DNA of 21,325 bases from a virus. The translations under genes and the position numbers were made by a program. The DNA lies in IMG/VR virus record IMGVR_UViG_3300036670_000032, positions 1-21,325 of that record, one strand, 5' to 3'. Shown here one piece after another: positions 829 to 16,720 of this stretch. Under the pieces are notes generated by a model. It was given only the letters and a program-made list of their open reading frames with translations. It searched no databases and was not told the origin of the DNA. Each line of letters begins with the position of its first letter. The first letter of the stretch is position 1.

Positions 829-1200
829 ATGAGAATAACAGAAAACTTACAAGAAAACTTCCCATTTATTAGTGTTATTAACCACGTCAATCAAGAGTAC
901 GTGGGTATTATTATTAATCAAGATGCACAAGTTACCAGTATGTACATTTATACTTCTATTAAGACGGAAGAAGAGCGGACTCAATTTTTAGAGCTAGGCG
1001 AAGCATGGTGGTGGGAGTCAAATCGTCAAATTCCTATTAATATTTTTCTGTTAAGAGAAATTGCAGGATTCCGATATATTATTAAAAACTTTTCAACTAA
1101 GGATGTAAAAGTTATGTTTGGCCCATGCACAAGCCTAAACAATATTATTGTAAAACGTATCAAACGTAAATCAATTACTCTAGTCAGAAAACCTACTTAA
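829..1200 (+). CDS. Conserved phage protein of unknown function (123 aa)
   Basis: A 123-residue protein on the plus strand, one of only two plus-strand stretches in the window. It is basic near its C-terminus (IVKRIKRKS) and has a Trp-rich segment EAWWWESNRQIPINIFL at about residues 63-79. It has no signal peptide or transmembrane helix. From memory it resembles a family of small proteins in marine T4-like phages that begin MRITENL, but no function is known to me. A perfect late promoter box precedes it at 773-780. No clear Shine-Dalgarno sequence is visible before the ATG. Its stop codon overlaps that of the convergent gene at 1197-1775 through a shared TTAA. Confidence 0.8.
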   Translation: MRITENLQENFPFISVINHVNQEYVGIIINQDAQVTSMYIYTSIKTEEERTQFLELGEAWWWESNRQIPINIFLLREIAGFRYIIKNFSTKDVKVMFGPCTSLNNIIVKRIKRKSITLVRKPT

Positions 1201-1775
1201 CTAAATCCGTAACTAATTCCTTCACAGATTAGATTCATCTGCACCACAATAGCAACAGCATATGCAGTGGCATGGGACTTCTTAAAGAAGTATTCATCGC
1301 CCGCTGGCTTTGTCCATACCTCGTTCATTACCGTAGTCCAATCTTTTCCAATTAGATAACGTTTCGCAGGCCGGATCATTGCCAAAATTGCCGCTAATTG
1401 TTCTATACTAGTTGGCTTCATTGATCTCAGAATAGAACCATGACCGTTTACATGAAACAGCAGATTACTGAAATCGTCCTGCTCTAGTAAGTCCCATAGT
1501 GGTTCGTTGTTCATTAATTCTACAAGATGAGTTTCATCTCTTACACCTTTGTAAATGCCAACATTAAGAAAGTCAATTTTAAAGTATCCTTCGTTATCTG
1601 CTTCATTATAAGGAACACTGCACAGTCCAGTAATTGCGTCAACTGGAACTTCGTGCATGTAAACCCCAGTGTTATGTTTAACTAGTTTGTTATTGTCAAC
1701 ACGACTAGCACCAACGTGCTTAAACAATGTTAATGCGTGTTCTCTATCTAAAAAGTCAATATCGATATCTGGCAT
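1197..1775 (-). CDS. Miniature DnaE-like protein (Pol III alpha palm-core homologue)
   Basis: This 192-residue protein carries the ordered signature blocks of bacterial DNA polymerase III alpha (DnaE) in very short form. PDIDIDF at residues 2-8 corresponds to the DnaE PDFDIDF motif, with Asp5 and Asp7 matching the first two catalytic aspartates. KHNTGVYM at 33-40 matches the 'HAAGVVI' block. GYFKIDFL at 63-70 matches 'KFDFLGL', so Asp68 is the third catalytic aspartate. FHVNGHGS and IRPAK (107-138) match 'FQLES.GM' and 'YRPGP'. FKKSHATAYA (164-173) matches 'FNKSHAAAYA'. DnaE is normally over 1000 residues; the PHP, most of the fingers, the beta-binding and OB regions are absent. From memory, similar short proteins occur in other marine T4-like phages. 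The match to DnaE motifs is strong; polymerase activity is unproven. Confidence 0.8.
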   Translation of the reverse strand: MPDIDIDFLDREHALTLFKHVGASRVDNNKLVKHNTGVYMHEVPVDAITGLCSVPYNEADNEGYFKIDFLNVGIYKGVRDETHLVELMNNEPLWDLLEQDDFSNLLFHVNGHGSILRSMKPTSIEQLAAILAMIRPAKRYLIGKDWTTVMNEVWTKPAGDEYFFKKSHATAYAVAIVVQMNLICEGISYGFS

Positions 1776-1784: not shown

Positions 1785-2450
1785 TCATCCTAACACATTT
1801 ATTTTAATATTTCCAGAAACACTTATTCTATATTCATCTGATGTATAGAACGGATAAACAATATGATTCAAACTAGAAGGAAACATCATAATAGTTCCTT
1901 CATAATTACTATCGACCGGAACTGGCATTTTGGTAATCTTGCCTAACGAATCTAGATAAACAAAGCAAAACTGAGAAGTGAATACTGATCCTCTATCAGT
2001 AGCGTTGCCCGACATAGCAGGAAAGTACTGCATCTCGTCTTCTAACTTATAAGGAATTTTAACCCAGATAACAAAACTTAATACAGATGGATGAGTGTGT
2101 AACGGATTAAATTCATATTTTTTCTGTTTGTTAACCCACAGTCTATCGAGTTGTAATTCATAATTATTGTTTTTAGTTACTTCCTCAAATTTATCAATGT
2201 ATCCAGGATGTGCAGCATGCCAAGCATTAGCTAATGCAATTATGTAACTAGACATTGTGTCATTAATATGATCTAATGAATATTCTTCTCGGATGTGGCC
2301 TGACAGTCTTAGATTGTAAGTTTCAGAGTCTTCAGTTAAATTATCTATAGAAGTTTTTAGAAACTGGAAAAGATCGTCCGGAAGTGTTGATTCTAAAACT
2401 CCTATGTTTGTAAAACTTCTAAGCGTTGCTGTTGTATTTTTCTCAGACAT
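1785..2450 (-). CDS. 2OG-Fe(II) oxygenase-like protein (phage prolyl-hydroxylase type)
   Basis: A 221-residue protein with the layout of phage 2-oxoglutarate/iron oxygenases. NPLHTHPSVLSFVIWVKIP at residues 115-133 holds candidate metal ligands His118 and His120. PSSLNHIVYPFYTSDEYRIS at 191-210 supplies the distal His196 and Arg208, the latter expected to bind the 2-oxoglutarate carboxylate. The textbook ligand set is HxD...H; here the second position is His, as I recall for other phage members with an 'H.H....S.V.Y' pattern. The family hydroxylates proteins or small molecules, but the substrate here is unknown. It lies nine bases upstream of the mini-DnaE gene in the same direction, with no recognisable Shine-Dalgarno before its ATG. 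Confidence 0.7.
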   Translation of the reverse strand: MSEKNTTATLRSFTNIGVLESTLPDDLFQFLKTSIDNLTEDSETYNLRLSGHIREEYSLDHINDTMSSYIIALANAWHAAHPGYIDKFEEVTKNNNYELQLDRLWVNKQKKYEFNPLHTHPSVLSFVIWVKIPYKLEDEMQYFPAMSGNATDRGSVFTSQFCFVYLDSLGKITKMPVPVDSNYEGTIMMFPSSLNHIVYPFYTSDEYRISVSGNIKINVLG

Positions 2451-2481: not shown

Positions 2482-2706
2482 TCATTGTATTCTTGTTGTT
2501 TCGAATAAAAGTAAAGGTAATGTTTCTGCTAGGAACTGTGCGTATTCCTCAGCATCCTCGCTGTCAGCAAAGCCAGAAAACTTTACAAAAACTTCGTTAG
2601 TATCTTCAGTTACTACAACTTCAACATCAATGTCGTCATCTGAAATAAAAGTTTCGTTTTCAGCTAACTCTATTTCTTTAATTTCTTCTTCAGGTCGTTT
2701 TGCCAT
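2482..2706 (-). CDS. Small acidic protein of unknown function (74 aa)
   Basis: A 74-residue, strongly acidic protein. Residues 1-37 are rich in Glu and Asp. The rest, from FVKFSGFADSEDAEEYAQFL onward, is likely one strand plus an amphipathic helix, ending in a hydrophobic LPLLLFE. Its ATG overlaps the stop of the zinc-finger gene by one base (TAATG), so the two are translationally coupled. From memory it resembles a small conserved protein of marine T4-like phages without assigned function. The hydrophobic C-terminus on an acidic body loosely recalls clamp-binding tails of T4 transcription factors, but I see no real motif for that. Confidence 0.7.
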   Translation of the reverse strand: MAKRPEEEIKEIELAENETFISDDDIDVEVVVTEDTNEVFVKFSGFADSEDAEEYAQFLAETLPLLLFETTRIQ

Positions 2707-3389
2707 TATAATATCTTCGCCTCCTTGATAACGTCTTTAACTAATTCTGTATCTGCTGGTAGAGATTTAAAACGTCTCATCCAAAACTGCGGATCGATAA
2801 CTGGCCCTACAATTGCCAGTTGCTCATCATTCATGCCTTTCAGCATCTCTTTACCAGCTTTGGTATTTAATATAATCCAAGGACTGACCAGTCCTTCTTT
2901 GATATCATGCGTAGCTCTATTTAAATTGACATAGGCAAAGTAATGCTCCCACTGTGATTTATTATCATCAGCCCAATCCATCATAGTTTTTATAGTACGC
3001 TGAATTGCACCATCGGCTGGCTCAATCTTAATAAGCTCGCTAATATATTTGTCATACAATTCGTCTCTACACCAGTGATCCAGTTTAACTCCGCTCTTGA
3101 TAACAAAGTCAACAAACCGTTCTGGATAGATAGGAGCAGTATTAACAGTGAAGCTGCCAAACTTTACAAAGGCTGTATAGAAACTACTTGATGCGAATTC
3201 ATCAAATGTCTTTGCCTGCTTTGCTTTTTGCGTAAGCTCGTAGAAACGTTGGAATGTTAACAACCCCATCTGAACATGTTTCTCGCCCTTGCTTAAATGC
3301 CTACGTTTTTGTTCGCAGATGTGAACTACCAAAGTCTTTTCTTTAGCAAATAGTTTTTCACAATGTTCGCACTTAAAATTTAATTGCAT
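2706..3389 (-). CDS. Zinc-finger-containing conserved phage protein
   Basis: From the ATG at 3389 (MQLNFKCEHCEK) this is a 227-residue protein. Its N-terminus has a C2H2-like finger: Cys-x2-Cys, twelve residues, His, and then either a nearby Cys or a His eight residues on (CEHCEK...VVHICEQKRRH). The remainder is helical with Trp/Tyr-rich blocks such as SSFYTAFVKFGSF, ERFVDFVIKSGVKLDHWC and DPQFWMRRF. The frame extends upstream to 3422, but that would add an 11-residue tail before the finger. The 3389 start is preceded by a purine run (AAGAAAGAAA) and gives a 17-base overlap with the upstream gene. I recall the same finger-plus-body layout in other T4-like phages, always without function. Nucleic-acid binding is a guess from the finger. 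Confidence 0.75.
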   Translation of the reverse strand: MQLNFKCEHCEKLFAKEKTLVVHICEQKRRHLSKGEKHVQMGLLTFQRFYELTQKAKQAKTFDEFASSSFYTAFVKFGSFTVNTAPIYPERFVDFVIKSGVKLDHWCRDELYDKYISELIKIEPADGAIQRTIKTMMDWADDNKSQWEHYFAYVNLNRATHDIKEGLVSPWIILNTKAGKEMLKGMNDEQLAIVGPVIDPQFWMRRFKSLPADTELVKDVIKEAKIL

Positions 3390-3852
3390 TGATTTCTTTC
3401 TTATCCCAACCAAGTTTCTCACAGTATGCTTTTACTTCTTTATCGGTTGTAATTATACACATAGTTTCAACGTCCGACATTTTCATATCGGGAAACAGTT
3501 CCGCTAAGAACGCTACTTTTTTATTCTTCTGCTTCTTTAACGGAATCCATTCGTGGAACTGTTTCTTCTTGCTTTCATGACTACACAAACATAAAGTCTG
3601 CCATACTAACTTAGGATGCTTCTGGATGTCATTCCAATTCTTATTGTAGAATTCATTGACAGTCAATACAAAATGTTCTTGTAGCTCTCTGTTATTGCTC
3701 TTAACACTGCTGATATATCTAGTAAGATTGAAGAAGTCGCCTTTAATTTCTTTTTTGCCTTCATCAGTAGCAGCGTCCCACAATTCTTTGATACCGAGAT
3801 CAACAGCAGGAATCATGTCATTAAAAAGATCTACGTGTTTATTTTTGCCCAT
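3373..3852 (-). CDS. Hypothetical protein (159 aa)
   Basis: A 159-residue, Lys-rich, probably all-helical protein (MGKNKHVDLFNDMIPAVDLG). It has several conserved-looking Trp positions (ELWDAAT, KNWNDI, LVWQTL, HEWIPL) and a Cys/His cluster LCLCSHESKKKQFHEW around residues 87-102. It has no signal peptide, membrane segment or catalytic motif I can name. The position, between a small conserved protein and the zinc-finger protein in an unbroken minus-strand set, suggests an early or middle DNA-metabolism gene. I considered a diverged clamp-loader small subunit (T4 gp62-like) because of the size and helix content, but there is no motif to support it. Confidence 0.65.
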   Translation of the reverse strand: MGKNKHVDLFNDMIPAVDLGIKELWDAATDEGKKEIKGDFFNLTRYISSVKSNNRELQEHFVLTVNEFYNKNWNDIQKHPKLVWQTLCLCSHESKKKQFHEWIPLKKQKNKKVAFLAELFPDMKMSDVETMCIITTDKEVKAYCEKLGWDKKEINAIKF

Positions 3853-4126: not shown

Positions 4127-4475
4127 CTTTTGCATGTCCTACTGTTTCGCGCTCGATATCGGCATGATCAAACTCTGCCCAATATAATTCAAAGGCAATG
4201 CAATCAGTGACAGCTTCAAATTGATGATATTCACCTGGAGCAACTTTGGTATATTGGCCGGCAGTTAATACTGTTTCGTCAATTAGATCGTAGTTGTTCT
4301 TCCACACTCGAATAATCATTTCACCTGACTCTACAAAGAAGCCATTCCATTTGTATTTGTGTCGATGCTTTGAGCATACGCCGCCCGACACCGCTTCAAT
4401 ACGGTGAAATTCTAATACACCGTTTGCTTCAAGGAGTTCAGTGGCCCCCCATACTTTACCAGCGCGAATTCCCAT
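4113..4475 (-). CDS. Single-domain cupin protein (sugar isomerase-like)
   Basis: A 120-residue protein that is essentially one cupin barrel. CSKHRHKYKWNGFFV (residues 34-48) is cupin motif 1 with His37 and His39 as metal ligands. LTAGQYTKVAPGEYHQFEA (70-88) is motif 2 with His84. The lead-in RAGKVWGATELL is typical of cupins related to mannose-6-phosphate isomerase and sugar-nucleotide enzymes. It probably binds a metal and a sugar-phosphate or similar small ligand; the reaction is not determinable. Translation starts at the TAATG overlap with the GIY-YIG endonuclease gene. The AAGGAG ribosome binding site is encoded inside the last codons of that endonuclease (Cys-Lys-Glu-Lys-Lys). A relic of an older start for this gene lies upstream of the endonuclease (5091-5111). 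Confidence 0.82.
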   Translation of the reverse strand: MGIRAGKVWGATELLEANGVLEFHRIEAVSGGVCSKHRHKYKWNGFFVESGEMIIRVWKNNYDLIDETVLTAGQYTKVAPGEYHQFEAVTDCIAFELYWAEFDHADIERETVGHAKDGKS

Positions 4476-5062
4476 TATTTTTTCTCCTTACAACTATTAA
4501 AATGCCATCTAGTCATAGACGGTTTACCTCCTTTTTTATTACAATGAGGACAACTAATTTGTTCTTTTTTGTCTCCGACAATTCCTTTATTCCACGGAAT
4601 GTTTCTATCAGCAAAAGAGTGAACTTGTACTGTTTTATATTTTTTAGGCTTATTATAGTGCCCGTGTTGCTCGCCACCTATTTGTGTTTTACCTAATCGA
4701 AATCCTATAGGACAATCTTCTGCTAAAGTATTTTTCTTACCATTAGTAAACCAATGTTTTCCGTTATGGTTCGGTGGCATGCCACCACCTTCTAATATAT
4801 TCCAACCTGTTTCTTTAGTAGGTCTCAGCTCAACTTCTTTGGCAATACATTCTTCCTCAGTGCCTTCAAATATAATATCTACTTCTAAATCTTTATATAA
4901 GTTGTAAGCATTTTGTAAATGTGGATTAGGATGAGACTTATTTTGTAATTTATTAAAATGACCCCAGATTCTATTGCCACGTCCTTCGGTTACAGTTATG
5001 CCAATATATCCTTGAGTCATTATATCATTATGTTCTTTATTTTTTATCCAGTATACTTTCAT
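4475..5062 (-). CDS. Freestanding GIY-YIG homing endonuclease (Seg-like)
   Basis: From the ATG at 5062 (MKVYWIKNKEHND) this encodes 195 residues. The N-terminal catalytic domain shows the GIY-equivalent VYW, the GYIGIT motif, an RIWGHF block that may supply the catalytic Arg, and the Glu-containing LRPTKETGWNILEGG block. The C-terminus (CPHCNKKGGKPSMTRWHFNSC) is the zinc finger of Seg-type endonucleases, expected to help bind DNA. An alternative ATG at 5077 (MLNTF before MKVYW) has a good AGGA ribosome site five bases upstream and may be used instead. A late-promoter-like motif ends five bases before the 5062 ATG. It sits between the 71-aa gene with its cupin relic (5091-5111) and the intact cupin gene, whose start it overlaps by one base. 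Confidence 0.88.
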   Translation of the reverse strand: MKVYWIKNKEHNDIMTQGYIGITVTEGRGNRIWGHFNKLQNKSHPNPHLQNAYNLYKDLEVDIIFEGTEEECIAKEVELRPTKETGWNILEGGGMPPNHNGKHWFTNGKKNTLAEDCPIGFRLGKTQIGGEQHGHYNKPKKYKTVQVHSFADRNIPWNKGIVGDKKEQISCPHCNKKGGKPSMTRWHFNSCKEKK

Positions 5063-5077
5063 AAAAGTATTTAGCAT
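5062..5077 (-). promoter_or_regulatory. Late-promoter-like motif at the start of the GIY-YIG gene
   Basis: The minus strand reads GCTAAATACTTTTATG across the endonuclease start, 10 of 13 positions of the extended late consensus TATAAATACTATT. Transcription would begin at or next to the ATG at 5062. The same motif, with one G for T and one upstream difference, precedes the HNH gene. Confidence 0.5.
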
Positions 5078-5323: not shown

Positions 5324-5829
5324 TAAATCACCTTATCTAGTTGTACAATTTCACTTTGCCTTGATATTTCTTTAACAAAATAAACACAAGGAGGGCTTGG
5401 ACCGTCATGCAATGGAACAGTAAGCAAGTGTCCGTTTTTCATTTTAGGGAAATACCATTTTACGTCTTGATAGATATTTACAATCTCAATCGGCATAAAC
5501 TCTGCTCTAAATCCGTTTATCGGATTAAAACACAATGCATCAAATCCACGTTCGTTAATGCTAGTCAATGGCAATACTTCTGGATCAAGCCCACATTCTT
5601 TATCGCCAACTACCATGCACCAATCTAAAGGCATTTGAATTTCGTGTCCGCCAATATTTAACAAAATAGCCGGACTATTAAAAGATTCTAAAAAGATCAG
5701 TGGCATGAAAAAGAAGTCAGGATCGTTAGGATTAGAATTATCTAATACTGAAAATCTAGTATCTTCATCTACCTCATCTGGTAAGTCGTTAAGGTCAAAT
5801 GACCTATTGTTTAGTGTTAAAATTCTCAT
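5323..5829 (-). CDS. Conserved marine T4-like phage protein next to uvsW (168 aa)
   Basis: A 168-residue acidic protein rich in Pro and aromatic residues. It contains FFFMPLIFLESFNSPAILL, IQMPLDWCMVVGDKECG, and LPLTSINERGFDALCFNP. Its C-terminal half reads IYQDVKWYFPKMKNG and SPPCVYFVKEISRQSE. It looks like a compact beta-rich fold with no catalytic motif I can name. The start forms an ATGA overlap with the uvsW stop, so it is co-translated with the helicase. I recall a similar protein directly downstream of uvsW in other marine T4-like phages, always unannotated. The linkage suggests a role in recombination or replication, but this is only context. Confidence 0.78.
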   Translation of the reverse strand: MRILTLNNRSFDLNDLPDEVDEDTRFSVLDNSNPNDPDFFFMPLIFLESFNSPAILLNIGGHEIQMPLDWCMVVGDKECGLDPEVLPLTSINERGFDALCFNPINGFRAEFMPIEIVNIYQDVKWYFPKMKNGHLLTVPLHDGPSPPCVYFVKEISRQSEIVQLDKVI

Positions 5830-7280
5830 CTAGTTACCTTGGTAATTGTAAAAGGATACTGTGCATCCTTATAAAACTTTTTTCTTTCTGTCAAATGTCT
5901 CTTGCTGTATTTGCAAGCTGATGTAATATCCCAAATTTCTACATGGTCTTTGTCTTCCGCTTTCCTAATACCGCGTCCAATAGACTGGATAACCCTAACA
6001 AAGCTCTTTCCGGGTTCCAAAAGAACCAGATTAAAAATCCTAGGAATATTAATGCCCACAGCGGCCACACCATAAGTCGCCACAATAATCTTATTAGTAC
6101 TTGTTTTAATTTCATCATATGATTCTTTCCTATCATCTAATTTCATACCGCCGCTGACAAAGACGGCTTCTGGTATTCTTTCAATTAGTTGCTTACCAGT
6201 ATCGATACGATTGATTAATACTAGAGTATTGCCAGTCAACGACAGCTCTTTAATTTTATTTGCCATCCAGGTCAATCGACTATCGTCCGTAACTAAGAAG
6301 GTATATTCGTCTGAGAAACTTCTAAACACTTCTACTTCGTTAGTCTGTAATACATTAATGTTTAGTTGTGCTAACACACCTTTTTCTTGTAAGTCGTGTG
6401 CAGATACTCGATTAATAACTGGACCAATAGCTGCAAGGATGCCTTGAAACTCAAATGCTTCCTTAGGTACTGTACCGGTCAATCCCCAACGAATAGCACA
6501 ATTTTTAAAGTTAACAGTTAGTAGTTTTGTTAGAACTTCTGCTTTAGCTTGGTGTACTTCGTCAATGATAATTGCAACCACGCCTTCAATAAATTCAGCT
6601 AGGCTCAATACTGCGGTATCGTAGCTTTTCTTATCAAGCACATTTAGACTTTGCCATGTACATATAGTATGCATTCTTCCTAGTTCTTTTCTATCGCCGA
6701 AGTAAACTCCAACGTCTAGACCTAAGTTCTTATAATCTTCTTCAGTCTGCACAACAAGACTCTTGTTGGGAACAATAACCATAGTTCGACCATACGGCTC
6801 GCACAAATGACTTAATGTTGCTGTGGTAAGCGTCTTGCCTGCGCCAGTTGCAACTTCTTGCAATGCTTGCGGATTCTCGCAGAACTTATTAACTACATCA
6901 AATTGATAGTCTCGAAGTACAACTGGTTGTCCTGCTGCTATATGTCCTTTAGGCCAAGTCTTACCTCGATCGGCCCAATAGTTCCCATCAATCTGTGGAA
7001 ATTTTAGTTCATGATGTTCACGTAGATCTTCTACTTCAATTTCGTAGCCGGCTTCTTCTATAATAGGTAGTATAACATCCAAATGTGCAAGATAACCAGT
7101 GCCACCAATACTGAAATAGGTTTTAGTTCCATCCCATCTTCCTAATTTATATGACGGCATATGTCGTGCATATGGCAGCTCAAATTTTAATTTGTTGACA
7201 ATCTTACGTCGTGTCTCTACGCTAAGTCCGTCTACCTTAATGTTTACTTCGTCTCTGATTGTAAGTTTACAGCTCGACAA
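5826..7280 (-). CDS. uvsW: UvsW-type recombination DNA helicase
   Basis: A 484-residue superfamily 2 helicase. Residues 1-88 form the small N-terminal DNA-binding domain seen in UvsW, with LPYARHMPSYKLGRWDGTK. Walker A is ATGAGKT (144-150), the Walker B box is DEVH (240-243), motif III is GLTGT (266-270), and motif VI is QSIGRGIR (432-439). T4 UvsW is about 500 residues, so this is full length. The family unwinds D-loops and R-loops and remodels stalled forks, and in T4 it shuts down origin replication in favour of recombination-dependent replication. The start is a TTG at 7280 with AAGGA seven bases upstream; the next Met is at residue 41, inside the conserved domain. The gene overlaps the 391-aa gene by 14 bases. 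Confidence 0.95.
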   Translation of the reverse strand: MSSCKLTIRDEVNIKVDGLSVETRRKIVNKLKFELPYARHMPSYKLGRWDGTKTYFSIGGTGYLAHLDVILPIIEEAGYEIEVEDLREHHELKFPQIDGNYWADRGKTWPKGHIAAGQPVVLRDYQFDVVNKFCENPQALQEVATGAGKTLTTATLSHLCEPYGRTMVIVPNKSLVVQTEEDYKNLGLDVGVYFGDRKELGRMHTICTWQSLNVLDKKSYDTAVLSLAEFIEGVVAIIIDEVHQAKAEVLTKLLTVNFKNCAIRWGLTGTVPKEAFEFQGILAAIGPVINRVSAHDLQEKGVLAQLNINVLQTNEVEVFRSFSDEYTFLVTDDSRLTWMANKIKELSLTGNTLVLINRIDTGKQLIERIPEAVFVSGGMKLDDRKESYDEIKTSTNKIIVATYGVAAVGINIPRIFNLVLLEPGKSFVRVIQSIGRGIRKAEDKDHVEIWDITSACKYSKRHLTERKKFYKDAQYPFTITKVTR

Positions 7281-8448: not shown

Positions 8449-8477
8449 ATTATAGCACCGCCCAACACAGATGTCAA
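8449..8477 (-). promoter_or_regulatory. Perfect consensus sigma70 promoter (early) for the 391-aa gene and uvsW
   Basis: On the minus strand TTGACA (8472-8477), a 17-base spacer and TATAAT (8449-8454) match the bacterial housekeeping consensus at every position. The -35 box contains the TGA stop of the upstream glycosyltransferase gene. The ATG at 8442 follows TATAAT by six bases, so the message is predicted to be leaderless or nearly so. Confidence 0.85.
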
Positions 8478-9307
8478 CTAATCTTACCCAACAATCTTGT
8501 TAATGGTATACCTTTAGTAATTTCACCAATAGTCCATTCTGTGTGACAAAGCCTTAAGAACCAGTCTTCTCTATCTGGTAGTACAATGTTGTTGATGTTT
8601 TCAATTGTACCAGATAACGGACCTGCTAAACTTGAATGGTCACAAATAACTGGTATACCATTTATTGCTGCTTGAACTGCAGGACCGCTGTTATAATTTA
8701 TAACGCAATGATACCCATAAAAAATATCAAAATCGTCGTACGACCCAATTATTCTTTTTGGAGTTTCTATAAAAATATTTCTAATTTTTAATGGAAAAGG
8801 AGATCTAGGATGATATCTAACCACAATTCTTTTTTTAGAATATTGTCGAATTTTTTCAATAGTATCTTCAGTCCATTGCTTCATAGATGGCATTCCGGCC
8901 CACTGAAGGCTGTGCGAATGTTGGGTAGCAATTAAAATATCTCCCCGTCTTTTTTCTTGTATTGGGGTTAACTTAATTCCTAACTTAGTTGGACGATCAG
9001 TATCTAAGTTAATATCATTACCAAATATTCCAAGTCCATTAATATGATTAACACTAACTTTCCAAGTAGTACCTCGTACAAGACTGCCCACCTCAAGTAT
9101 AATTATAGGAGTTCCGGCGGATCGACTTTCATCATAAATTTTTTGATTAGCAGCCATTCGGCCGGCCCACAATACTGACCAAATTACCGGAATGGCATCT
9201 CCGGTTTTTACACTTTCATGTCCAAGTAATTTCAAGCCAGCCTCAAACGCATCAAAGATAGGTTGACTGTTTAGGGCACCGTGTTCGCGATATAATCTGA
9301 AGCGCAT
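8474..9307 (-). CDS. Capsule-synthesis-like GT-B glycosyltransferase paralogue 1
   Basis: A 277-residue protein belonging to the family repeated three more times in this window. Recognisable blocks are VIWSVLWAGRM near residue 41, a strand with RIVVRYHPRSPFP (residues about 159-171), NYNSGPAVQAAINGIPVICD (about 224-243), and the family C-terminus, WFLRLCHTEWTIGEITKG. The His-Pro and Asn-Ser-(G/S)-x-A-x(2-4)-A-x(2)-G-x-P blocks are typical of capsule polysaccharide synthesis or export and Kdo-transferase-like GT-B proteins. I infer a role in building or modifying a surface glycan; donor and acceptor are unknown. AGGA lies four bases before its ATG. It reads away from the plus-strand glycan genes that start at 9335 and ends inside the -35 box of the next promoter. 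Confidence 0.75.
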   Translation of the reverse strand: MRFRLYREHGALNSQPIFDAFEAGLKLLGHESVKTGDAIPVIWSVLWAGRMAANQKIYDESRSAGTPIIILEVGSLVRGTTWKVSVNHINGLGIFGNDINLDTDRPTKLGIKLTPIQEKRRGDILIATQHSHSLQWAGMPSMKQWTEDTIEKIRQYSKKRIVVRYHPRSPFPLKIRNIFIETPKRIIGSYDDFDIFYGYHCVINYNSGPAVQAAINGIPVICDHSSLAGPLSGTIENINNIVLPDREDWFLRLCHTEWTIGEITKGIPLTRLLGKIS

Positions 9308-9314
9308 AAGATCC

Positions 9315-9322
9315 TATAAATA
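9315..9322 (+). promoter_or_regulatory. T4-type late promoter box (TATAAATA) for the plus-strand glycan genes
   Basis: Perfect TATAAATA on the plus strand, placing initiation near 9328, just before the gene at 9335/9344. It is the only obvious promoter for the three plus-strand genes, implying late expression. Confidence 0.65.
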
Positions 9323-9326
9323 TAGC

Positions 9327-9336
9327 AGTATTTAAT
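9327..9336 (-). promoter_or_regulatory. Possible divergent late promoter box for the 8474-9307 gene
   Basis: The minus strand reads ATTAAATACT here, keeping the TAAATACT part of the T4 late consensus. Initiation near 9323 would leave a 15-base leader holding AGGA before the ATG at 9307. It lies back to back with the plus-strand box at 9315-9322. Confidence 0.35.
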
Positions 9337-9343
9337 GATTCCT

Positions 9344-9742
9344 ATGGACCAGTTTAAAAAAAGATTATCTAAGTTATCTAAGCATCCACAAAATGCAGTA
9401 GTCATCGGCAATGGGTTCGAACGATTAACTGATTTGTTGGATGTATTTGAAACTGTTTTTATATTCTCTAATAAGCCTGCTAGCATCAAGGCCAAGAACT
9501 TAGTTCCTAAAGAATCGATAATCTCAATATTGAATGCTATAAATGTAACTGCAATTCTTGTAGATTTAGAATACTTGCCTAGCCTAGAACAAACTTTACC
9601 GTTATGGCATCAATGGCGCCCTTTAATTTTAATAGAGGGAAATGATCCTATTGGTAGAGATAAGTCTCAAACATTATATAAAAATCATTATCGCTGTGTC
9701 GATCAACATAGTGTATATCACGTATGGAAATTTCAACCATGA
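9344..9742 (+). CDS. Hypothetical protein in the glycan block (about 132 aa)
   Basis: From the ATG at 9344 (MDQFKKRLSKL) this gives 132 residues; an in-frame ATG at 9335 adds three. Neither start has a clear Shine-Dalgarno. The sequence alternates strands and helices: NAVVIGNGFERL, ETVFIFSNKP, VTAILVDLEYL, RPLILIEGND. This suggests a small Rossmann-like fold, but I recognise no nucleotide or SAM motif. It is the first gene behind the late promoter at 9315-9322 and overlaps the next glycosyltransferase start as ATGA (9739-9742). It may be an accessory subunit to that glycosyltransferase, but this is inference from coupling only. Confidence 0.7.
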   Translation: MDQFKKRLSKLSKHPQNAVVIGNGFERLTDLLDVFETVFIFSNKPASIKAKNLVPKESIISILNAINVTAILVDLEYLPSLEQTLPLWHQWRPLILIEGNDPIGRDKSQTLYKNHYRCVDQHSVYHVWKFQP

Positions 9743-10545
9743 AAATAGCAGTAGTAACAACCTTTCACGAAAAAGGGTTAAAGACATATGCACAAAAGAT
9801 GATTAATACCTTCTGTGAAAATTGGCCAGACGAAGTTACCCTTCATATCTATCCTGAAAAATGCAACCCGATTATCAGAAATCATGGACATATCACATTA
9901 ACTAGTTTAGACGACGTTAAAGGGTTGACAGCATTTAAAGAAAAATGGAAGAACGTTCCTAAAGCAAATGGAGATGTTAGCGCTGATCCTATTCGTAGTA
10001 AACGTAAAGATTCAGGTAAAGGGTTCAAGTGGGATGCTGTACGATTTGCCCATAAAGTATATGCTATTTTTGATTGTGCAAAGTATTCAGATGCAGATGT
10101 GTTAGTATGGATGGATGCTGACACAATTTGCCATAGTCCTATTACTAAAGAGCGTTTAGAGCAGTTAATTCCTGTCGATAAAGACTTGTGCTTCCTTGGC
10201 CGTAAAGGAAAATATACTGAGTGTGGGTTATACTCGATGAACCTTAGATCACCATTAGTGCAATCATTCTTACAAGAATTTCAGCGCATGTATGACGATG
10301 CAGAATCCGGTATTTTTACATTGGATGAATGGCATGATAGTTTTGTATTTGATGCTGCTAGAACGAAATTTAAGAAATTAAACAACTTAGATTGGAGTAG
10401 TCATTTAATAGCAGGTGAAGGACATCCGTTAATCAACAGTGAATGGGGCGCCTATTTAGATCATTTAAAAGGCGCTCGAAAGACAGTTGGGCGGAGCCAA
10501 TTAAGCGATTTAAAAGTTAAAAGAACAGAGGAGTATTGGAAATGA
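9739..10545 (+). CDS. GT-A-type glycosyltransferase
   Basis: From the ATG at 9739 (MKIAVVTTFHEKGL), which forms an ATGA overlap with the preceding gene, this encodes 268 residues. The frame could also start at 9724, adding five residues. A first strand IAVVTTF, an FKWDAVRFAHKVYAIFD helix, and VLVWMDADTICHSPI with the metal-binding Asp126-x-Asp128 give the GT-A layout. Later blocks are CGLYSMNLRSPLVQSFL and the DEWHDSFVFD segment near residue 204. The enzyme probably transfers a sugar from a nucleotide-sugar donor using a divalent metal. The stop overlaps the FkbM methyltransferase start (ATGA), so sugar addition and methylation are translationally coupled. Confidence 0.85.
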   Translation: MKIAVVTTFHEKGLKTYAQKMINTFCENWPDEVTLHIYPEKCNPIIRNHGHITLTSLDDVKGLTAFKEKWKNVPKANGDVSADPIRSKRKDSGKGFKWDAVRFAHKVYAIFDCAKYSDADVLVWMDADTICHSPITKERLEQLIPVDKDLCFLGRKGKYTECGLYSMNLRSPLVQSFLQEFQRMYDDAESGIFTLDEWHDSFVFDAARTKFKKLNNLDWSSHLIAGEGHPLINSEWGAYLDHLKGARKTVGRSQLSDLKVKRTEEYWK

Positions 10546-11192
10546 AACAATCACATGGGTTTTGGTTTCCGGATTACGATAGTCATTTTCCGAAAATGCT
10601 TAATAAAAGTATGGTAAAAGACGGTGTTGCTAGATATCAATATCGGGCAAGAGATGCAGCTATCGCTATGTGCAATCAAAAAAGAATATGTTTAGATATC
10701 GGAGCGAATGTTGGATTATGGTCGTGCGACCTGGTTAGATCATTTGAACATGTTATTGCATTTGAGCCTGTAGTAGAGTTTATTGAATGTTTTAAAAAGA
10801 ACGTTACTAGTAATAACTATACTATGCACCAAATAGCTCTAGGGCGGACAGAAAGTGTTGTTGAGATGAATATTGTTCAAGGAAATACTGGGCATTCACA
10901 TATCAATCAACAATCAATAGGCAAAGGAACAATTCCGTTGAAAACTCTCGATAGCTTTGGTTTGTTAAACGTTGACATGATAAAAATTGATGTTGAGGGG
11001 TTTGAAGGTGAAATTCTTGCCGGGGCTATAGAAACTATAAAGAAAAATAAACCAATTTTAGTAATTGAACAGCAAAAACATGAATATCAAAATGATATAA
11101 ACGAAACACCGGCTATTAAGATTTTAGAAAATTGGGGTTACCGAGTCGTTGATCAATTTAGCAAGGACTGGATACTTAAATGTATTAATTAA
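10542..11192 (+). CDS. FkbM-family SAM-dependent methyltransferase (copy 1)
   Basis: From the ATG at 10542 this gives 216 residues; a GAGGAG ribosome site lies eight bases before it, and an upstream TTG at 10536 is the alternative. Motif I is CLDIGANVGLWS (SAM-binding), followed by VIAFEPVVEFIE. The FkbM signature is MIKIDVEGFEGEILAGA. FkbM enzymes O-methylate hydroxyls, commonly on sugars of glycans or antibiotics. It is the last of three coupled plus-strand genes and a paralogue of the gene at 16095-16718; both start with a 'W.PD.D.HF' N-terminal block. Its TAA shares TTAA with the stop of the convergent gene at 11189. Confidence 0.88.
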   Translation: MKQSHGFWFPDYDSHFPKMLNKSMVKDGVARYQYRARDAAIAMCNQKRICLDIGANVGLWSCDLVRSFEHVIAFEPVVEFIECFKKNVTSNNYTMHQIALGRTESVVEMNIVQGNTGHSHINQQSIGKGTIPLKTLDSFGLLNVDMIKIDVEGFEGEILAGAIETIKKNKPILVIEQQKHEYQNDINETPAIKILENWGYRVVDQFSKDWILKCIN

Positions 11193-12091
11193 GTTAAGTA
11201 TGGCAAGAATTTTTTATAAATTAATCCTTGTCTACTCTCATTGTCTGACCAATGACATGCTGCTAGATCGTGTATCCATTGTGTTCGATCAAATAACTCA
11301 GGATTATTGAATGAAGATAATGTGTTATTAGCCACTGGCCAACATACACTACTACTATCATCTACCCAAAGAGGAACTCCTGCTAAGATACTAGCAACAC
11401 CACTACTACTATTGAACACGAGTGCAGCCTTGGCATGTTTTAAATCTTTCAATAACGAAATAGTCTTACTATTACTAATAGAAACTCCAGGACAAACTAG
11501 CGACGACAAGTCTGCAACTTTTCCAGGATGGGGCCTAAGCACTATCGGCAGGTCTGTGTATTTGCGTACTTCTTGAATTTTATTTCTAGACCACGTAACC
11601 GGATCGATTCCTTTCATACTCCATCCGCCGTCACGTTGTACTAAGAATAAAATATAGTCTCCGGAGTTTTTCCAGTTTGCTATTTTTAGGCCTAAATCAC
11701 GGCTTACATTTTCCCATTGGCTAGAATCCGAATTCTTATTCGCGTACTCGCTAGTATCGTAAAATACTCCGTTGAGACTATATCTCAAATACTTATTTTT
11801 GACATCGTTAAATTTAAAACAATTAGCATCGATTGCCATTGTGTGATTGCCTGCTTTTTTCTGAGAGTCTATAACTACTGCCCTAAGCCTGATATTTGAA
11901 GTAGATTGAACCGGAGCAGTCCAGCCTAATATTACCGCTAATTTTGCAGGACGATATACATAGTGTGTTTCTATATGAACGCGAGCACCGGCTTTTCGAG
12001 CGCCTTCGGCAAATGCAGTTAATGCATCTACTTTTCTGCCAGGTTCTTGCTTATGCAATGAACTAAGATATACTACAACGTCATTTATCAT
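11189..12091 (-). CDS. Capsule-synthesis-like GT-B glycosyltransferase paralogue 2
   Basis: A 300-residue protein beginning MINDVVVYLSSLHKQEPG. It shows the family blocks in order: LAVILGWTAPVQST, YILFLVQRDGGWSMKG, LPIVLRPHPGKV, FNSSSGVASILAGVPLWVDD, and the C-terminal WIHDLAACHWSDNESRQG. Compared with the other three copies it keeps the His-Pro pair, as paralogue 1 does and paralogues 3 and 4 do not. It starts in an ATGA overlap with the end of the GT-A/GT-B fusion gene upstream, so it is co-translated with it. Substrates unknown. Its expression probably depends on the minus-strand glycan operon that begins at 17353, or on late boxes inside it. Confidence 0.75.
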   Translation of the reverse strand: MINDVVVYLSSLHKQEPGRKVDALTAFAEGARKAGARVHIETHYVYRPAKLAVILGWTAPVQSTSNIRLRAVVIDSQKKAGNHTMAIDANCFKFNDVKNKYLRYSLNGVFYDTSEYANKNSDSSQWENVSRDLGLKIANWKNSGDYILFLVQRDGGWSMKGIDPVTWSRNKIQEVRKYTDLPIVLRPHPGKVADLSSLVCPGVSISNSKTISLLKDLKHAKAALVFNSSSGVASILAGVPLWVDDSSSVCWPVANNTLSSFNNPELFDRTQWIHDLAACHWSDNESRQGLIYKKFLPYLT

Positions 12092-13749
12092 TTGGCTGGA
12101 TAATATACTGTTTGTGTTGCAGGATCTTCGTTAAGGATTCTCCATGCAGTGCCGTTACGCATATCTGCTTCGCTAAACTGGCAGTAGGCAAGATGAGCAG
12201 CCCATAATGCTAATTCGTCCAAACTAGGAATATATGGGTTTTCTATTTGAGAAAGATCATCTAAACACAATTGGTGCGCAGCATTAGGTCCAAGCGTAAA
12301 TGCAGGCTTGCCCAAAAGTAGTGCTTCTGATGCTGCGATACTATTATATGTAACTAGACAATGTACATTGTCAGCTAATGCCATTTCCATAGTATCTGTT
12401 GACGATCTTTCTCTTCTACTAACTTTCTGCCTAATAACAATTGGTCGGTCAGTATGTTGTTTAATTGTAGAAATAATTTCTTCCATCCATTTGTCTAAAT
12501 TTAATCCAAATGCATTCATAGCCTTGGCACTAGGAGGGCACACTAGAATATTGCTACCAGGTCTAAACTTTTTCTTGCGCCAGCCAACTTGGTCTAATCG
12601 ATCAAACGGTCTTTCGATAATTGGACCAATGTTTTGCATGGCATTTTTAGTAATTCTATGATAGAATTTTTTACGTACATTACCAAAGTATCCAGTATCA
12701 ATATAGAAATAATCTCTGCCTGCGGCAGCACATGCTTTCATATATTTGTGCTTAGTGATTCCTCTAAATATTACCGGAGACATTAACTGTTCTACTTTAT
12801 CATAAGTTGTTATTTGGCCACCACAGCCTAATATAAATGATTCCATGTATGGATCCCATCCTAGTCCTTTGCCGTCACTAACATCTCTGCCGCCATCTAC
12901 TGCTACGGCATTCTTACTATCTAACATTTTAATTTCGTTAATTACCTGATCAATTGTAGTTCCGTATATTTCATTAGCAGGATCAACTCTATATTTTAAA
13001 ATATGATTAAACACTGATCGGATGTTGTCGGGGATATTATCAAATGGCTTAGGTGCTGGCTGTACAATTATTGATTCAATATAGCTTGCTTTCTCCTGCT
13101 CCCATACTGCTCCGAATTCTACATGCGTGCAATTCGGAAACCAAGGACCGCCTTCTGTATAATGTATAACTTTTGGATACCCGTCTTTAGGAGTCTTGTA
13201 CCATCCTACTAGCCAATTGTATTCGTGTGATAACGAACCAATTTGGCTATCGTTTAACCATCTGAATCTGTGAAAATATTCTCCAGTATTTGACATGCTA
13301 TTAACAGCAGCAGCGGTCATTTTTGCATTAGCAGGATGCCCGCAATTCCACAAAATTACTGAACTCCAATTTTTTCTAGGATACAGGTGCTGTGTTTTTC
13401 CGTCCATTTTTTCTCCGGCTAACGGCGTGTAGTCGTGTTTAACTACCATAACTGCATAGTCGTCGTTTGCCTGTTTAAAAATTTCCTCAACATCAACCTG
13501 AAAAATAATATCGCTGTCACAGAATATTGCCCAACCTTTGTATTCCATCATATGAGGAACAAGGAAGCGGGTAAATGTAAATTCAGTCGAACTTAGGTTA
13601 TCAAAATTTCTGGTATATAATTTTTTCTCTATCAGTTCTTTCTGCTTTAACGGTATTACAGTAACAGCAGAATTCCGTTTAGTAATACTATGTTTACACA
13701 CTTCGTATGCTATACTTTCTCTTGAATCCCATCCAATAAAAACCTTCAT
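12088..13749 (-). CDS. Two-domain fusion: GT-A glycosyltransferase plus capsule-synthesis-like GT-B domain (paralogue 3)
   Basis: A 553-residue fusion. Residues 1-225 are a GT-A domain starting MKVFIGWDSRESIAYEV, with the metal motif FCDSDI (Asp78-x-Asp80), WSSVILWNCGHP and a distal VIHYTEGGPWF. After a linker, residues about 300-545 are a paralogue of the neighbouring gene at 13759-14562. Shared blocks are IFRGITKHKYMKAC, DYFYIDTGYFGN, HRITKN.MQN..PIIERP.DR, DRPIVIRQK, NSIAASEALLLGKPAFTL and LALWAAHLAYCQFSEADMRNG. The similarity is visible at DNA level too, which points to a tandem duplication followed by fusion. One polypeptide with two transferase domains could add two sugars in sequence. 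Donors and acceptors are unknown. Confidence 0.82.
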   Translation of the reverse strand: MKVFIGWDSRESIAYEVCKHSITKRNSAVTVIPLKQKELIEKKLYTRNFDNLSSTEFTFTRFLVPHMMEYKGWAIFCDSDIIFQVDVEEIFKQANDDYAVMVVKHDYTPLAGEKMDGKTQHLYPRKNWSSVILWNCGHPANAKMTAAAVNSMSNTGEYFHRFRWLNDSQIGSLSHEYNWLVGWYKTPKDGYPKVIHYTEGGPWFPNCTHVEFGAVWEQEKASYIESIIVQPAPKPFDNIPDNIRSVFNHILKYRVDPANEIYGTTIDQVINEIKMLDSKNAVAVDGGRDVSDGKGLGWDPYMESFILGCGGQITTYDKVEQLMSPVIFRGITKHKYMKACAAAGRDYFYIDTGYFGNVRKKFYHRITKNAMQNIGPIIERPFDRLDQVGWRKKKFRPGSNILVCPPSAKAMNAFGLNLDKWMEEIISTIKQHTDRPIVIRQKVSRRERSSTDTMEMALADNVHCLVTYNSIAASEALLLGKPAFTLGPNAAHQLCLDDLSQIENPYIPSLDELALWAAHLAYCQFSEADMRNGTAWRILNEDPATQTVYYPAK

Positions 13750-13758
13750 TTTCTTCCT

Positions 13759-14562
13759 TTAAATTTCTCGAAGCATACGCAATGCATTGCCGTTTTCTAA
13801 TTCACCATTATGGAATTGCCCATAAGCTAAGTGACTTGCCCACTTAATTAATTTATCATATTCTGGATAGTATGGCGTTTCAATTTTAGAAAGATCTTGG
13901 CAAGCTACAGGGCTTGCAGCATTTGCAGGAGCTAATGTAAATGCCGGAATACCCTGCATAATTGCTTCCGTTGCTGCAACTGAGTTAAAAGTTACTAGAG
14001 CAAATACATCATCAGCTAATGCATTTTTTAATGTATCGCTAACTGTTCTATCAATACGTTTTGCTGCACGATCTCTTACTAACACTGGACGATCTGTATA
14101 TCGTTTAATAGTGTCTACAGTATTGTTAGTCCACTGTTCTAAATCAATTCCATAAAATTTACAAGGTTTGTCGTCAGGCTTAGCAACTAGAATTTTTCTG
14201 CCGTCTGTTTTCCAAGGAGTAAATGTCTTGTTAAAAATACTCCATCTATCCGCTGGTCGTTGAATTATCTCACCGTGTTGTATATTATTTTTAACAATAC
14301 GATGCCAGTGTTTCCAACCATGTGGGTTCGACGAATTAGCTTCGTTGCCAAAATATCCAGTATCTATATAATAAAAATCTCTGCCGTCATCCCAGCAGCG
14401 TTTCATAATTTTATGTTTTAAGATACCTCTTAGTACAATAGGACTGTCTGAATTTTCATAAACAAAGTCGTCAGTAGATATAATCTTGCCGCCGCAAGAT
14501 CTTGCTAACTTTTCAACGTATTCGTCTTTACCATCTTTACTGAGAAAAATCCAATCTTTCAT
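13759..14562 (-). CDS. Capsule-synthesis-like GT-B glycosyltransferase paralogue 4
   Basis: A 267-residue stand-alone version of the C-terminal half of the fusion protein encoded next to it. Blocks in order: IVLRGILKHKIMKRC, DFYYIDTGYFGN, HRIVKNNIQHGEIIQRPADR, DRPVLVRDRAAKRI, FNSVAATEAIMQGIPAFTL, and KLIKWASHLAYGQFHNGELENG. Where the other branch of the family has Arg-x-His-Pro, this has Arg-Asp-Arg-Ala, so the donor site differs. The start overlaps the cytidylyltransferase-cupin stop (ATGA) and only nine bases separate its stop from the next gene. It is likely co-translated with the enzyme that makes an activated sugar, so it may use that product as donor; this is inference. Confidence 0.78.
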   Translation of the reverse strand: MKDWIFLSKDGKDEYVEKLARSCGGKIISTDDFVYENSDSPIVLRGILKHKIMKRCWDDGRDFYYIDTGYFGNEANSSNPHGWKHWHRIVKNNIQHGEIIQRPADRWSIFNKTFTPWKTDGRKILVAKPDDKPCKFYGIDLEQWTNNTVDTIKRYTDRPVLVRDRAAKRIDRTVSDTLKNALADDVFALVTFNSVAATEAIMQGIPAFTLAPANAASPVACQDLSKIETPYYPEYDKLIKWASHLAYGQFHNGELENGNALRMLREI

Positions 14563-15317
14563 TGTCGTTCAATATCCTCTTCAACGCACTGATCGCCGTA
14601 TTGTATTTCAACAACTTTAACAGGAACTTCAAATGGATTTGTTAATTGATGCCATTGCCTAACAGGTACTTTGTATTCTTCATGTGGTACTAGGACTGTT
14701 GCAGGCAATACATAACCGCTGCTCATTTGGCTATTAACTACTGCATTACCTTCGCTAACAATCCAATATTCTGCACGTAGTTGATGCCGCTGCATACTAA
14801 GACTGCATCCGGGATTAACTGTAAGTTCTTTAACTTTCATTCCCGGAACTTCATGCAGGACGCGATAATATCCCCATTGTCGTTCAGTCTTAGGAGCCTT
14901 CCATTCTTGCAATATCCAGCTACTAGAATTTTTTTTATCTTCGCCGCCGACTCCGAATACAAATTCTATGTTGTCTACACCGCTATCCATTTCTGGAATA
15001 TTATCTAATGTTCGATCTCCGCCGTTGGCGAAAATAATACGATCATTGGGATACAGCATCTTAACATTGCGGATGGCTTCTATAGCAGTGTTGTCATCAT
15101 CGTTAAACAGGATGCAATGACTAACCATTTTTAGGTTTTCTATAATCGTAACACGCTCTGCGCTAGGCATAAAGGCTTGGCCCTTCTTACGCTCTAGCCA
15201 GCCGTCACTATTGATACCAACGACTAAAACATCGCCTAACTCTTTTGCTGCGTTGAAGTAGGCAATGTGCCCACTGTGTAAAGGGTCGTATCCGCCAGTG
15301 CAAAGTACAATTTTCAT
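14559..15317 (-). CDS. Cytidylyltransferase-cupin fusion (sugar or polyol activation)
   Basis: A 252-residue two-domain protein. Residues 1-135 are a nucleotidyltransferase of the glycerol-3-phosphate cytidylyltransferase/HldE-C type, with TGGYDPLHSGH at 7-17 (catalytic HxGH, His14 and His17) and FANGGDRTLDNIPE. Residues about 140-252 are a cupin like the C-terminus of type II mannose-6-phosphate isomerase: RQWGYYRVLHEV, VNPGCSLSMQRHQLRAEYW, a VRQWHQLTNP block and VEIQYGDQCVEEDIER. The protein probably activates a sugar or polyol phosphate and isomerises or binds a related one. ATGA overlaps link it to the HNH endonuclease upstream and the glycosyltransferase downstream. A relic of a second, differently coded start lies beyond the endonuclease (16029-16067). 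Confidence 0.85.
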   Translation of the reverse strand: MKIVLCTGGYDPLHSGHIAYFNAAKELGDVLVVGINSDGWLERKKGQAFMPSAERVTIIENLKMVSHCILFNDDDNTAIEAIRNVKMLYPNDRIIFANGGDRTLDNIPEMDSGVDNIEFVFGVGGEDKKNSSSWILQEWKAPKTERQWGYYRVLHEVPGMKVKELTVNPGCSLSMQRHQLRAEYWIVSEGNAVVNSQMSSGYVLPATVLVPHEEYKVPVRQWHQLTNPFEVPVKVVEIQYGDQCVEEDIERQ

Positions 15318-16009
15318 TTTTTAATAATTCTCCCTTTTATATATCCGCCAGGTTCTTCTCCAGGATAAAATATTGAACATTTTTTTGTCACAGAACAATA
15401 GTACCAAGATTTTCCTCGCTTTCCATTGCCAGCTGCATATCTTTTAGCAGGATCTTTCATTTGTTCTTTTGACTTCTGTTTTCGTACCTCAATCTGGTTA
15501 GGATCGTTAAATTGTTTCCGGTTTGCTTCTCGAAGTGTATCTTTTGTTTTTTCGTTATGCGTTTTTCCGAGCATTGGAGAATCTTGAAGTTTTCTTTTTT
15601 CCTTCATTAAAGATCGAGTTTTGTCAGTATGCGTTTTTCCATAGAAAGGATTATTTGTCCCTTTTTGAGATTTACCTATTATTGCTCTAGTTTCTTTAAT
15701 TATAGATTCATAACCTTTAGACGATATTTTGTATCTTGACTGGTAAGGATTTTCTCTAATCATCATTGTTCTAATAGCATACGACATTTTTACTTTATTG
15801 TTACCTTCTGTCATTTTAACCAAAAGTCTATGACAAATAAAATGTTCTTTTGCTGTAAGTGCTACTATATTTTCTTTTTTATTTGAGCCACCTAAACTTT
15901 TAGGAATTATGTGATGATTCTCTTTATAACCCGATATGTCTAAAGGATTATTTTTTCTATTAGATATAATGCTGTTATACCATCTTGTATATTTGTTATT
16001 CTTAAACAT
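15314..16009 (-). CDS. HNH homing endonuclease with NUMOD3 repeats
   Basis: From the ATG at 16009 (MFKNNKYTRWYNSI) this encodes 231 residues; an in-frame GTG at 16042 is possible but would begin inside the cytidylyltransferase relic. The HNH core is ENHHIIPKSLGGSNKKENIV with His32/His33 and Asn48, and AKEHFICH supplies later histidines. Two DNA-binding NUMOD3-type repeats follow: NPFYGKTHTDKTRSLM and SPMLGKTHNEKTKDTL. The basic C-terminus ends GRIIKK. The stop overlaps the cytidylyltransferase start as ATGA. No intron structure surrounds it, so it is freestanding. A late-promoter-like GATAAATACTTG precedes the ATG directly, and no Shine-Dalgarno is visible. Confidence 0.88.
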   Translation of the reverse strand: MFKNNKYTRWYNSIISNRKNNPLDISGYKENHHIIPKSLGGSNKKENIVALTAKEHFICHRLLVKMTEGNNKVKMSYAIRTMMIRENPYQSRYKISSKGYESIIKETRAIIGKSQKGTNNPFYGKTHTDKTRSLMKEKRKLQDSPMLGKTHNEKTKDTLREANRKQFNDPNQIEVRKQKSKEQMKDPAKRYAAGNGKRGKSWYYCSVTKKCSIFYPGEEPGGYIKGRIIKK

Positions 16010-16022
16010 ACAAGTATTTATC
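16009..16022 (-). promoter_or_regulatory. Late-promoter-like motif at the start of the HNH gene
   Basis: The minus strand reads GATAAATACTTGT then ATG, 10 of 13 positions of the extended T4 late consensus and a full match to the NATAAATA form. The start codon falls at the expected initiation point. It nearly duplicates the motif in front of the GIY-YIG gene. Confidence 0.5.
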
Positions 16023-16028
16023 AAACTT

Positions 16029-16067
16029 TGGATCAAACCCACCGGTAACTAAAATTATTTTGCGCAT
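16029..16067 (-). pseudogene. Relic of a cytidylyltransferase 5' end, upstream of the HNH gene
   Basis: An ATG at 16067 opens M-R-K-I-I-L-V-T-G-G-F-D-P, then leaves homology and stops at 16002. The intact gene beyond the endonuclease starts M-K-I-V-L-C-T-G-G-Y-D-P. Apart from Met and one AAA Lys, every identical residue (I, L, T, G, G, D, P) uses a different codon in the two copies. I infer the remains of the target gene's original or paralogous start, separated from its body by the endonuclease insertion. Confidence 0.65.
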
Positions 16068-16072
16068 AAAGT

Positions 16073-16080
16073 TATTTATG
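16073..16080 (-). promoter_or_regulatory. Late promoter box (CATAAATA) in front of the cytidylyltransferase relic
   Basis: The minus strand reads CATAAATA, then ACTTT, then the relic's ATG. It fits the NATAAATA late core and lies in the 27-base gap after the methyltransferase stop. It may still drive the HNH gene and the downstream glycan genes. Confidence 0.5.
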
Positions 16081-16094
16081 TACGCAGTTAATAC

Positions 16095-16718
16095 CTACCA
16101 GCCGAAAATGTAATCTTTTCTAACGCTGGTTAATTCTATTGCACCTAGCGACTTAAGATATTCGCCTGCTTGCTTAAACTTTGCATGTTGTTCAACAATT
16201 AAAATAGGTTTATATTTTAATATTGTTTCTGTAGCACCTTTAAGTACTTGGAGTTCGTAGGTTTCACAATCGAGTTTTATCATTCCAAATTTTGGAAGAT
16301 TTAAATCATCTAATTTTTTAATTAAAATACTACCAGTTCCGAGCGAATCTTTTTTAATATAACTTGCGCCAATGTTTTCATGATCGAAAAACATATCAAC
16401 AGTATTGTTTTCCTCGCCCAGCGCAAAGTTGTACAAATCAACGTTTAGCCCTTTAACATTTAGTTCTAAACATTCGTAGACTTCGTTAATTGGTTCAAAT
16501 GCAATTACTTTATTAAATCGTTCAGCTAGATGCTTTGCCCAAAGTCCTACATTGGCTCCTACATCAACAACTAGATCAAAGTCAGTTACATATTTGTATG
16601 CTGCATCTCTTACGTCATCTTGATATTGTGCAGGTCCGCCTTTTTTAATACGTTTAGCAATTAACCCTTCAAAATGTTCGTCGCAATCGGGCATCCAATA
16701 TTCGTAAACTTTTTTCAT
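16095..16718 (-). CDS. FkbM-family SAM-dependent methyltransferase (copy 2)
   Basis: A 207-residue paralogue of the methyltransferase at 10542-11192. The SAM motif is VVDVGANVGLWAKHL, followed by VIAFEPINEVYECL. The FkbM signature region is MIKLDCETYELQVLKGA, where copy 1 has DVEGFEGE, so the usual Gly after Glu is Thr here. The N-terminal block YEYWMPDCDEHFEGLI matches WFPDYDSHFPKML in copy 1. It probably methylates a glycan hydroxyl. The start is two bases after the stop of the glycosyltransferase gene and has AAGG eight bases upstream. A late promoter box (16752-16759) lies inside the preceding gene. Confidence 0.87.
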   Translation of the reverse strand: MKKVYEYWMPDCDEHFEGLIAKRIKKGGPAQYQDDVRDAAYKYVTDFDLVVDVGANVGLWAKHLAERFNKVIAFEPINEVYECLELNVKGLNVDLYNFALGEENNTVDMFFDHENIGASYIKKDSLGTGSILIKKLDDLNLPKFGMIKLDCETYELQVLKGATETILKYKPILIVEQHAKFKQAGEYLKSLGAIELTSVRKDYIFGW

Positions 16719-16720
16719 CT

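Follow-up and report, generated by a model that had tools for sequence, protein, structure and literature searches.

An environmental phage fragment encoding a probable C-terminal half of the split minimal Pol III alpha

In the jumbo phages of group 2.2, a phage-specific minimal DNA polymerase III alpha (Pol III alpha) has been described that is split into two proteins encoded at distant loci, and its pieces, an N-terminal NTP-binding one and a C-terminal one that binds Mg2+ and the template, occur in genomes that also encode a family B polymerase (Iyer et al. 2021, PMC7824862). According to the proposal of Iyer et al., the two proteins together restore an enzyme that serves one strand or repair, and they placed Atu_ph07, which we used here as a relative, in group 2.2 (PMC7824862). 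Short Pol III alpha proteins have been noted in individual phages as well, namely, gp316 in the genome paper of Atu_ph07 (PMC6102473), which is an N-terminal half (N-half), and the 172-aa CBB_328, called 'truncated' (PMC5259590), which is probably the N-half that sits at ~243 kb in the CBB genome. A search of the open-access literature found no biochemical study of the split Pol III alpha. The gene analysed here lies in a 21-kb IMG/VR virus record (21,325 nucleotides; this whole stretch is referred to as the window) and encodes a C-terminal half (C-half), which is an environmental member of this already described split minimal Pol III alpha (PMC7824862). The concept has been known since 2021 from genome comparison, and the window provides one new environmental member; we add the exact breakpoint, the residue mapping, the two PHROG families, the gene neighbourhoods and the co-occurrence of the halves in environmental contigs.

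The C-half gene occupies positions 1197..1775 on the minus strand, with its ATG at 1775-1773 and its stop codon at 1199-1197, and encodes 192 aa, while the plus-strand reading of 1197-1775 is full of stops. The extent and length given for this ORF in a preliminary description were recovered, as were all the motifs quoted there, in the same order, on the minus strand. In PHROG, the C-half ORF matched phrog_11778 (annotated 'DNA polymerase') with an E-value of 2.7e-67, and showed weak links to the full-size DnaE family phrog_405 (E 4.4e-6). Using tblastn, we identified 90 phage records, all below 60% identity, with 89 of the 90 matches covering at least 80% of the query; the 60 records listed are mostly large phages, including RaK2/121Q-like and PA5oct-like phages, Atu_ph07, Phosso, XacN1, GAP32, CBB and similar ones. 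IMG/VR contains at least 544 relatives. The median dN/dS of the C-half over 117 pairs of close homologues is 0.10, a value for the family, as synonymous sites between the window C-half and its own nearest relatives are near saturation and thus give no ratio for the window itself. Judged by these comparisons, the 192-aa ORF is real and a member of the widespread phage family phrog_11778, far beyond chance. A single clear relative emerged from a scan of genome contigs; the 3.7-kb contig on which it lies belongs to an archaeal MAG and is probably a stray phage contig. Two weak matches were returned besides.

The catalytic aspartates of E. coli DnaE are D401, D403 and D555, of which D401 and D403, the first two Asp of the PDxDxD motif, form the metal-binding pair, and the third Asp of the motif, D405, is kept in DnaE and is Asn in PolC (PMC3919608). 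The MPDIDIDF motif of the C-half places D3 at D401, D5 at D403 and D7 at D405 (codons D3, I4, D5, I6 and D7, corresponding to E. coli D401-D405, at 1755..1769 on the minus strand), and, with the residue roles taken from PMC3919608, D3 and D5 are predicted metal ligands. D68 (codon at 1572..1574, minus strand), the third predicted metal ligand, corresponds to D555 in the profile alignment of the C-half with DnaE (E 6.6e-7). The preliminary description had placed the catalytic aspartates at D5, D7 and D68; the last assignment stands, and the first two should be shifted to D3 and D5, with D7 equivalent to D405. All of D3, D5, D7 and D68 are 100% conserved in 157 C-half homologues, and so are H34 (H511), G37 (G514), K66 (K553), R135-P136 (R639-P640), H168 (H760) and Y172 (Y764); the conservation survey that had been suggested thus left the triad intact. 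The R-P of R135-P136-A137-K138 (1362..1373, minus strand) matches R639-P640 of DnaE, with K138 being invariant in the phage family only, and F164-KKSHATA-Y172 (1260..1286, minus strand) matches the DnaE segment FNKSHSAAY at E. coli 756-764. By this alignment, the presence of D7 points to the DnaE side of the C-family, away from PolC.

The protein is much reduced relative to DnaE. The DxD and D555 equivalents are separated by 60 residues in the C-half versus about 150 in DnaE, and the 192 aa include none of the PHP, thumb, clamp-binding and OB parts of DnaE. The C-half starts exactly at the DxD motif, and the GS motif (GRGS) of the nucleotidyltransferase fold is missing as well. The fingers are shortened, and the DnaE-invariant Q687-Q689 (YQEQ segment) and R709 are absent from the phage halves. 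Among the 48 positions that are invariant in six DnaE sequences and can be mapped onto the two halves, 27 have the same majority residue, and at 19 the residue is kept in at least 95% of the sequences, all catalytic ones included.

An AlphaFold2 model of the C-half, built with 54 homologues, had a pLDDT of 90.9. When this model was compared with the PDB by Foldseek, the first 16 matches were all DnaE/PolC (probability 0.60-1.00, E 6.7e-4 to 0.42), and the next match was to an unrelated structure with a probability of 0.05. The TM-scores against DnaE/PolC are moderate, about 0.4-0.5, which, given the domain limits of the DnaE thumb and fingers, would fit a protein that has no thumb and shortened fingers. 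The placement of the aspartates in the predicted active site comes from the sequence alignment together with the fold match. On the alignment and the model, the C-half is a DnaE-derived palm plus part of the fingers in which the catalytic triad is kept. The proposal of a DnaE-derived palm with a retained triad is supported by the DnaE/PolC fold match, where an unrelated fold would have spoken against it, and by the invariance of the triad in the 157 homologues.

A polymerase-beta-like site requires a GS motif ahead of the DxD strand. The C-half starts at the DxD strand without a GS motif. When whole related records were searched with PF07733, 13 of 18 contained another ORF that scored above the family cut-off; the same search detected no full-length DnaE in related records. 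These N-half ORFs are about 155-180 aa long, belong to phrog_11127 (annotated 'DNA polymerase'), and match the PF07733 profile at positions 11-98 only, where they stop. Their C-terminal end reads '...WGVGRGSSVASYVLYLIGVHKVDSxKYxLxxxEFxK', and in all 101 N-half ORFs collected the end falls there or no more than a few codons away. In E. coli DnaE coordinates, the N-half ends at ~393-396, and the window C-half begins at 399. The profile comparison of the N-half with DnaE gave an E-value of 9.9e-10 over E. coli 320-396, its AlphaFold2 model had a pLDDT of 91.7, and the first 14 PDB matches of the model were DnaE/PolC. The GRGS motif of the N-half is invariant or nearly so in very diverged homologues, and the DnaE-invariant R390 is Glu in the N-half. 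No fused form was present among the 101 N-half and 163 C-half ORFs. By sequence, the N-half and the C-half are exactly complementary at the breakpoint. Thus, the earlier view that the 192-aa protein by itself is a complete minimal palm is not supported, as the GS (GRGS) part sits on a second conserved phage protein. A third missing piece was considered for weak PF07733 matches in CBB and GAP32 (L176, L177) and was rejected, as the frames there contain stops and the ORFs look unrelated, one being deaminase-like.

Among the related contigs or genomes, 21 reach at least 259 kb, and both halves are present in 20 of them (W01-W06, G001-G004, G009, G021-G028 and G033), a count that includes possibly incomplete IMG/VR contigs. 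We rejected the remaining contig, G005 (280 kb), as a true exception: its family B polymerase (gp43) is located at 260.6 kb on the minus strand, and since the N-half is located about 20-26 kb upstream of gp43 in G004, G006, G008, G033 and G034, the expected N-half site in G005 falls past the contig end. Smaller fragments often contain one half only, e.g. the N-half in G035 (202 kb) and the C-half in G007 (198 kb), as expected for distant genes; the halves are ~31 kb apart in 121Q and ~180 kb apart in Atu_ph07. A distance-correlation test of the two halves gave r 0.965, computed without a control gene, a value that reflects shared descent and is no evidence of binding. As the window record is a 21-kb fragment, the statements on the N-half and gp43 rest on its relatives. 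The family B polymerase was absent from the window fragment and was found in 16 of 17 large related contigs, which supports the earlier assignment to a lineage with a family B polymerase, here a T4-type one. This gene lies in separate reading frames in Paride (W03, 88.9-92.7 kb), G009 (197.7-200.3 kb) and Atu_ph07 (W02, 212.3-213.7 kb), in keeping with the report of a split PolB intein in MIJ3 (PMC6892783). A DnaQ (epsilon) protein was considered as an obligatory partner; it occurs in most of the isolated phages and is absent from the window-like contigs G004, G006, G008, G033 and G034, and is thus not a fixed part of the system.

The C-half gene is located downstream of UvsW, and a few genes before a primase and/or a DnaB-type helicase in five of six annotated phages inspected, XacN1 being different. 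In the window, the UvsW-type helicase (5826..7280, minus strand) is the upstream neighbour in a conserved replication/recombination block, and UvsW, UvsX, UvsY and a gp32-like SSB, the T4-type recombination genes that mark group 2 phages, are all four present. In 47 of 57 loci, the N-half gene precedes the gp44 clamp loader gene by 1.1-2.9 kb on the same strand. Both halves are therefore in replication neighbourhoods, though different ones. A convergent gene of unknown function (phrog_11637; 829..1200, plus strand) shares 4 bases with the 3' end of the C-half gene and is not part of the polymerase; of the 126 related loci whose flank is long enough, 125 have a match to it, each time on the strand opposite to the C-half.

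Several other genes were noted in the window. A C2H2-like zinc finger gene of 238 aa (phrog_11058; 2706-3422, minus strand) lies upstream of the C-half in 125 of 126 loci and is possibly a replication or transcription accessory. A 2OG-Fe(II) oxygenase-like gene (1785-2450, minus strand; PF13759, E 5.5e-11) is inserted just upstream of the C-half and is shared by only 8 related loci. Two ORFs are homing-endonuclease-like, one at 15314-16042 (minus strand) of the NUMOD3/HNH type, and one at 4475-5077 (minus strand) with a weak GIY-type match and no counterpart in the related loci searched. Between UvsW and UvsY/UvsX, ~9 kb (8474-17353) are occupied by carbohydrate-type genes, including glycosyltransferase 8-like and FkbM methyltransferase genes, and a gene at 14559-15317 in which a cytidylyltransferase-like domain is fused to a mannose-6-phosphate isomerase C-terminal domain. 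PADLOC gave no match.

On the alignments and models, we consider it likely that the C-half is one half of a two-protein polymerase/nucleotidyltransferase, the halves of which assemble into one site. The C-half would supply the ligands D3/D5/D68 for two metals and, with its RP and KSHA finger motifs, would contact the template through reduced fingers, while the N-half would supply the GS motif (GRGSS), which in DnaE faces the incoming nucleotide; the halves would thereby join into a single nucleotidyltransferase site of the polymerase-beta-like type, at which nucleotides would be added to DNA. A processive replicase is disfavoured, and short synthesis, gap filling or end addition favoured, because the thumb, YQEQ, R709, and the clamp-binding and OB parts are lost, and also because R390 is replaced by Glu in the N-half and an invariant Lys follows R-P in the C-half. 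Judged by gene context, such an activity could belong to repair or to recombination-dependent replication, with gp43 as the family B replicase at its side. An active phage polymerase built from two chains is known from Aeromonas phage 25 (gp43A/43B; PMC2988022). We would give an even chance to the stronger statement that the halves, together ~350 residues long, make up a functional C-family polymerase that lacks the PHP, thumb and clamp-binding domains. In this reading, two proteins with genes of their own would each contribute to the active site, and a widespread group of large phages would use the enzyme alongside a family B replicase.

The halves might instead assemble with catalysis lost and play a structural or regulatory role at the replication fork, e.g. 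by bridging gp43, the clamp loader and the helicase. The missing thumb and the loss of much of the fingers, including the DnaE-invariant Q687-Q689 and R709, would suit such a role, and inactive polymerase homologues with accessory roles exist, e.g. ImuB of the Y family (PMC12926913); however, the three metal ligands and GRGS are invariant or nearly so in very diverged homologues, which is unexpected after a loss of catalysis, and we regard this reading as unlikely. It is rather improbable that the 192-aa C-half works alone, either as a tiny nucleotidyltransferase or as a decoy for host DnaE, clamp or clamp-loader partners, both of which had been put forward earlier. Its fold is predicted with confidence on its own and its gene is far from that of the N-half, but the GS motif is in the other protein, which is complementary at the exact breakpoint and is encoded in the same genomes; a decoy for the clamp or tau is further disfavoured, as the missing regions of DnaE are precisely those with which it binds these two partners. 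Finally, the C-half is far shorter than any cellular DnaE, and CBB_328, probably an N-half, was called truncated (PMC5259590), as would be expected for a truncated, decaying relic of a captured host dnaE. We find this hardly credible, and it is already contradicted by the present data: there are hundreds of homologues of near-equal length under purifying selection (dN/dS ~0.10), with invariant catalytic residues and a conserved gene order. The selection and the invariant active-site residues also argue against the relic suggested earlier.

Should the two-protein enzyme prove active, it would be a Pol III-type polymerase of very small size, from which the DnaE parts needed for chemistry could be learned cleanly. 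It would then have to be asked what large phages that have a family B replicase of their own gain from a second polymerase, bacterial in type and kept as two pieces. The two genes are carried by cultured E. coli phages such as 121Q, and the assembly is thus testable. As for the origin of the split, the full-size DnaE of Staphylococcus phage SpP (locus L276, 3-4912) is interrupted by an intron-associated endonuclease gene directly before the DxD motif, and, by analogy, a mobile element might have been inserted at the active-site codons. This route remains a suggestion, because no RNA family or intron model matched at the SpP junction or in the window; Iyer et al. discuss an ancient minimal form instead (PMC7824862).

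Compared with E. coli DnaE, the phage halves have equivalents of the Asp triad, D405, H511, G514, K553, R639-P640 and FxKSHxxxY in the same order, but the phage enzyme has no PHP, no thumb-sized segment, shortened fingers and no clamp-binding or OB parts, and its GS motif is on the other polypeptide. The gp43 of Aeromonas phage 25 is likewise a split phage DNA polymerase: each of its two chains has its own gene, and the chains co-purify and are active (PMC2988022). This polymerase differs in being of family B, full-size and encoded by adjacent genes with a homing endonuclease. The DnaE of Staphylococcus phage SpP is broken at the same place as here, directly before ADIDID, but is full-size, with adjacent pieces and the endonuclease gene between them. 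The closest counterpart is the split minimal Pol III alpha of group 2.2, from which the window C-half, a standalone C-terminal piece with the catalytic Asp present, differs in nothing essential.
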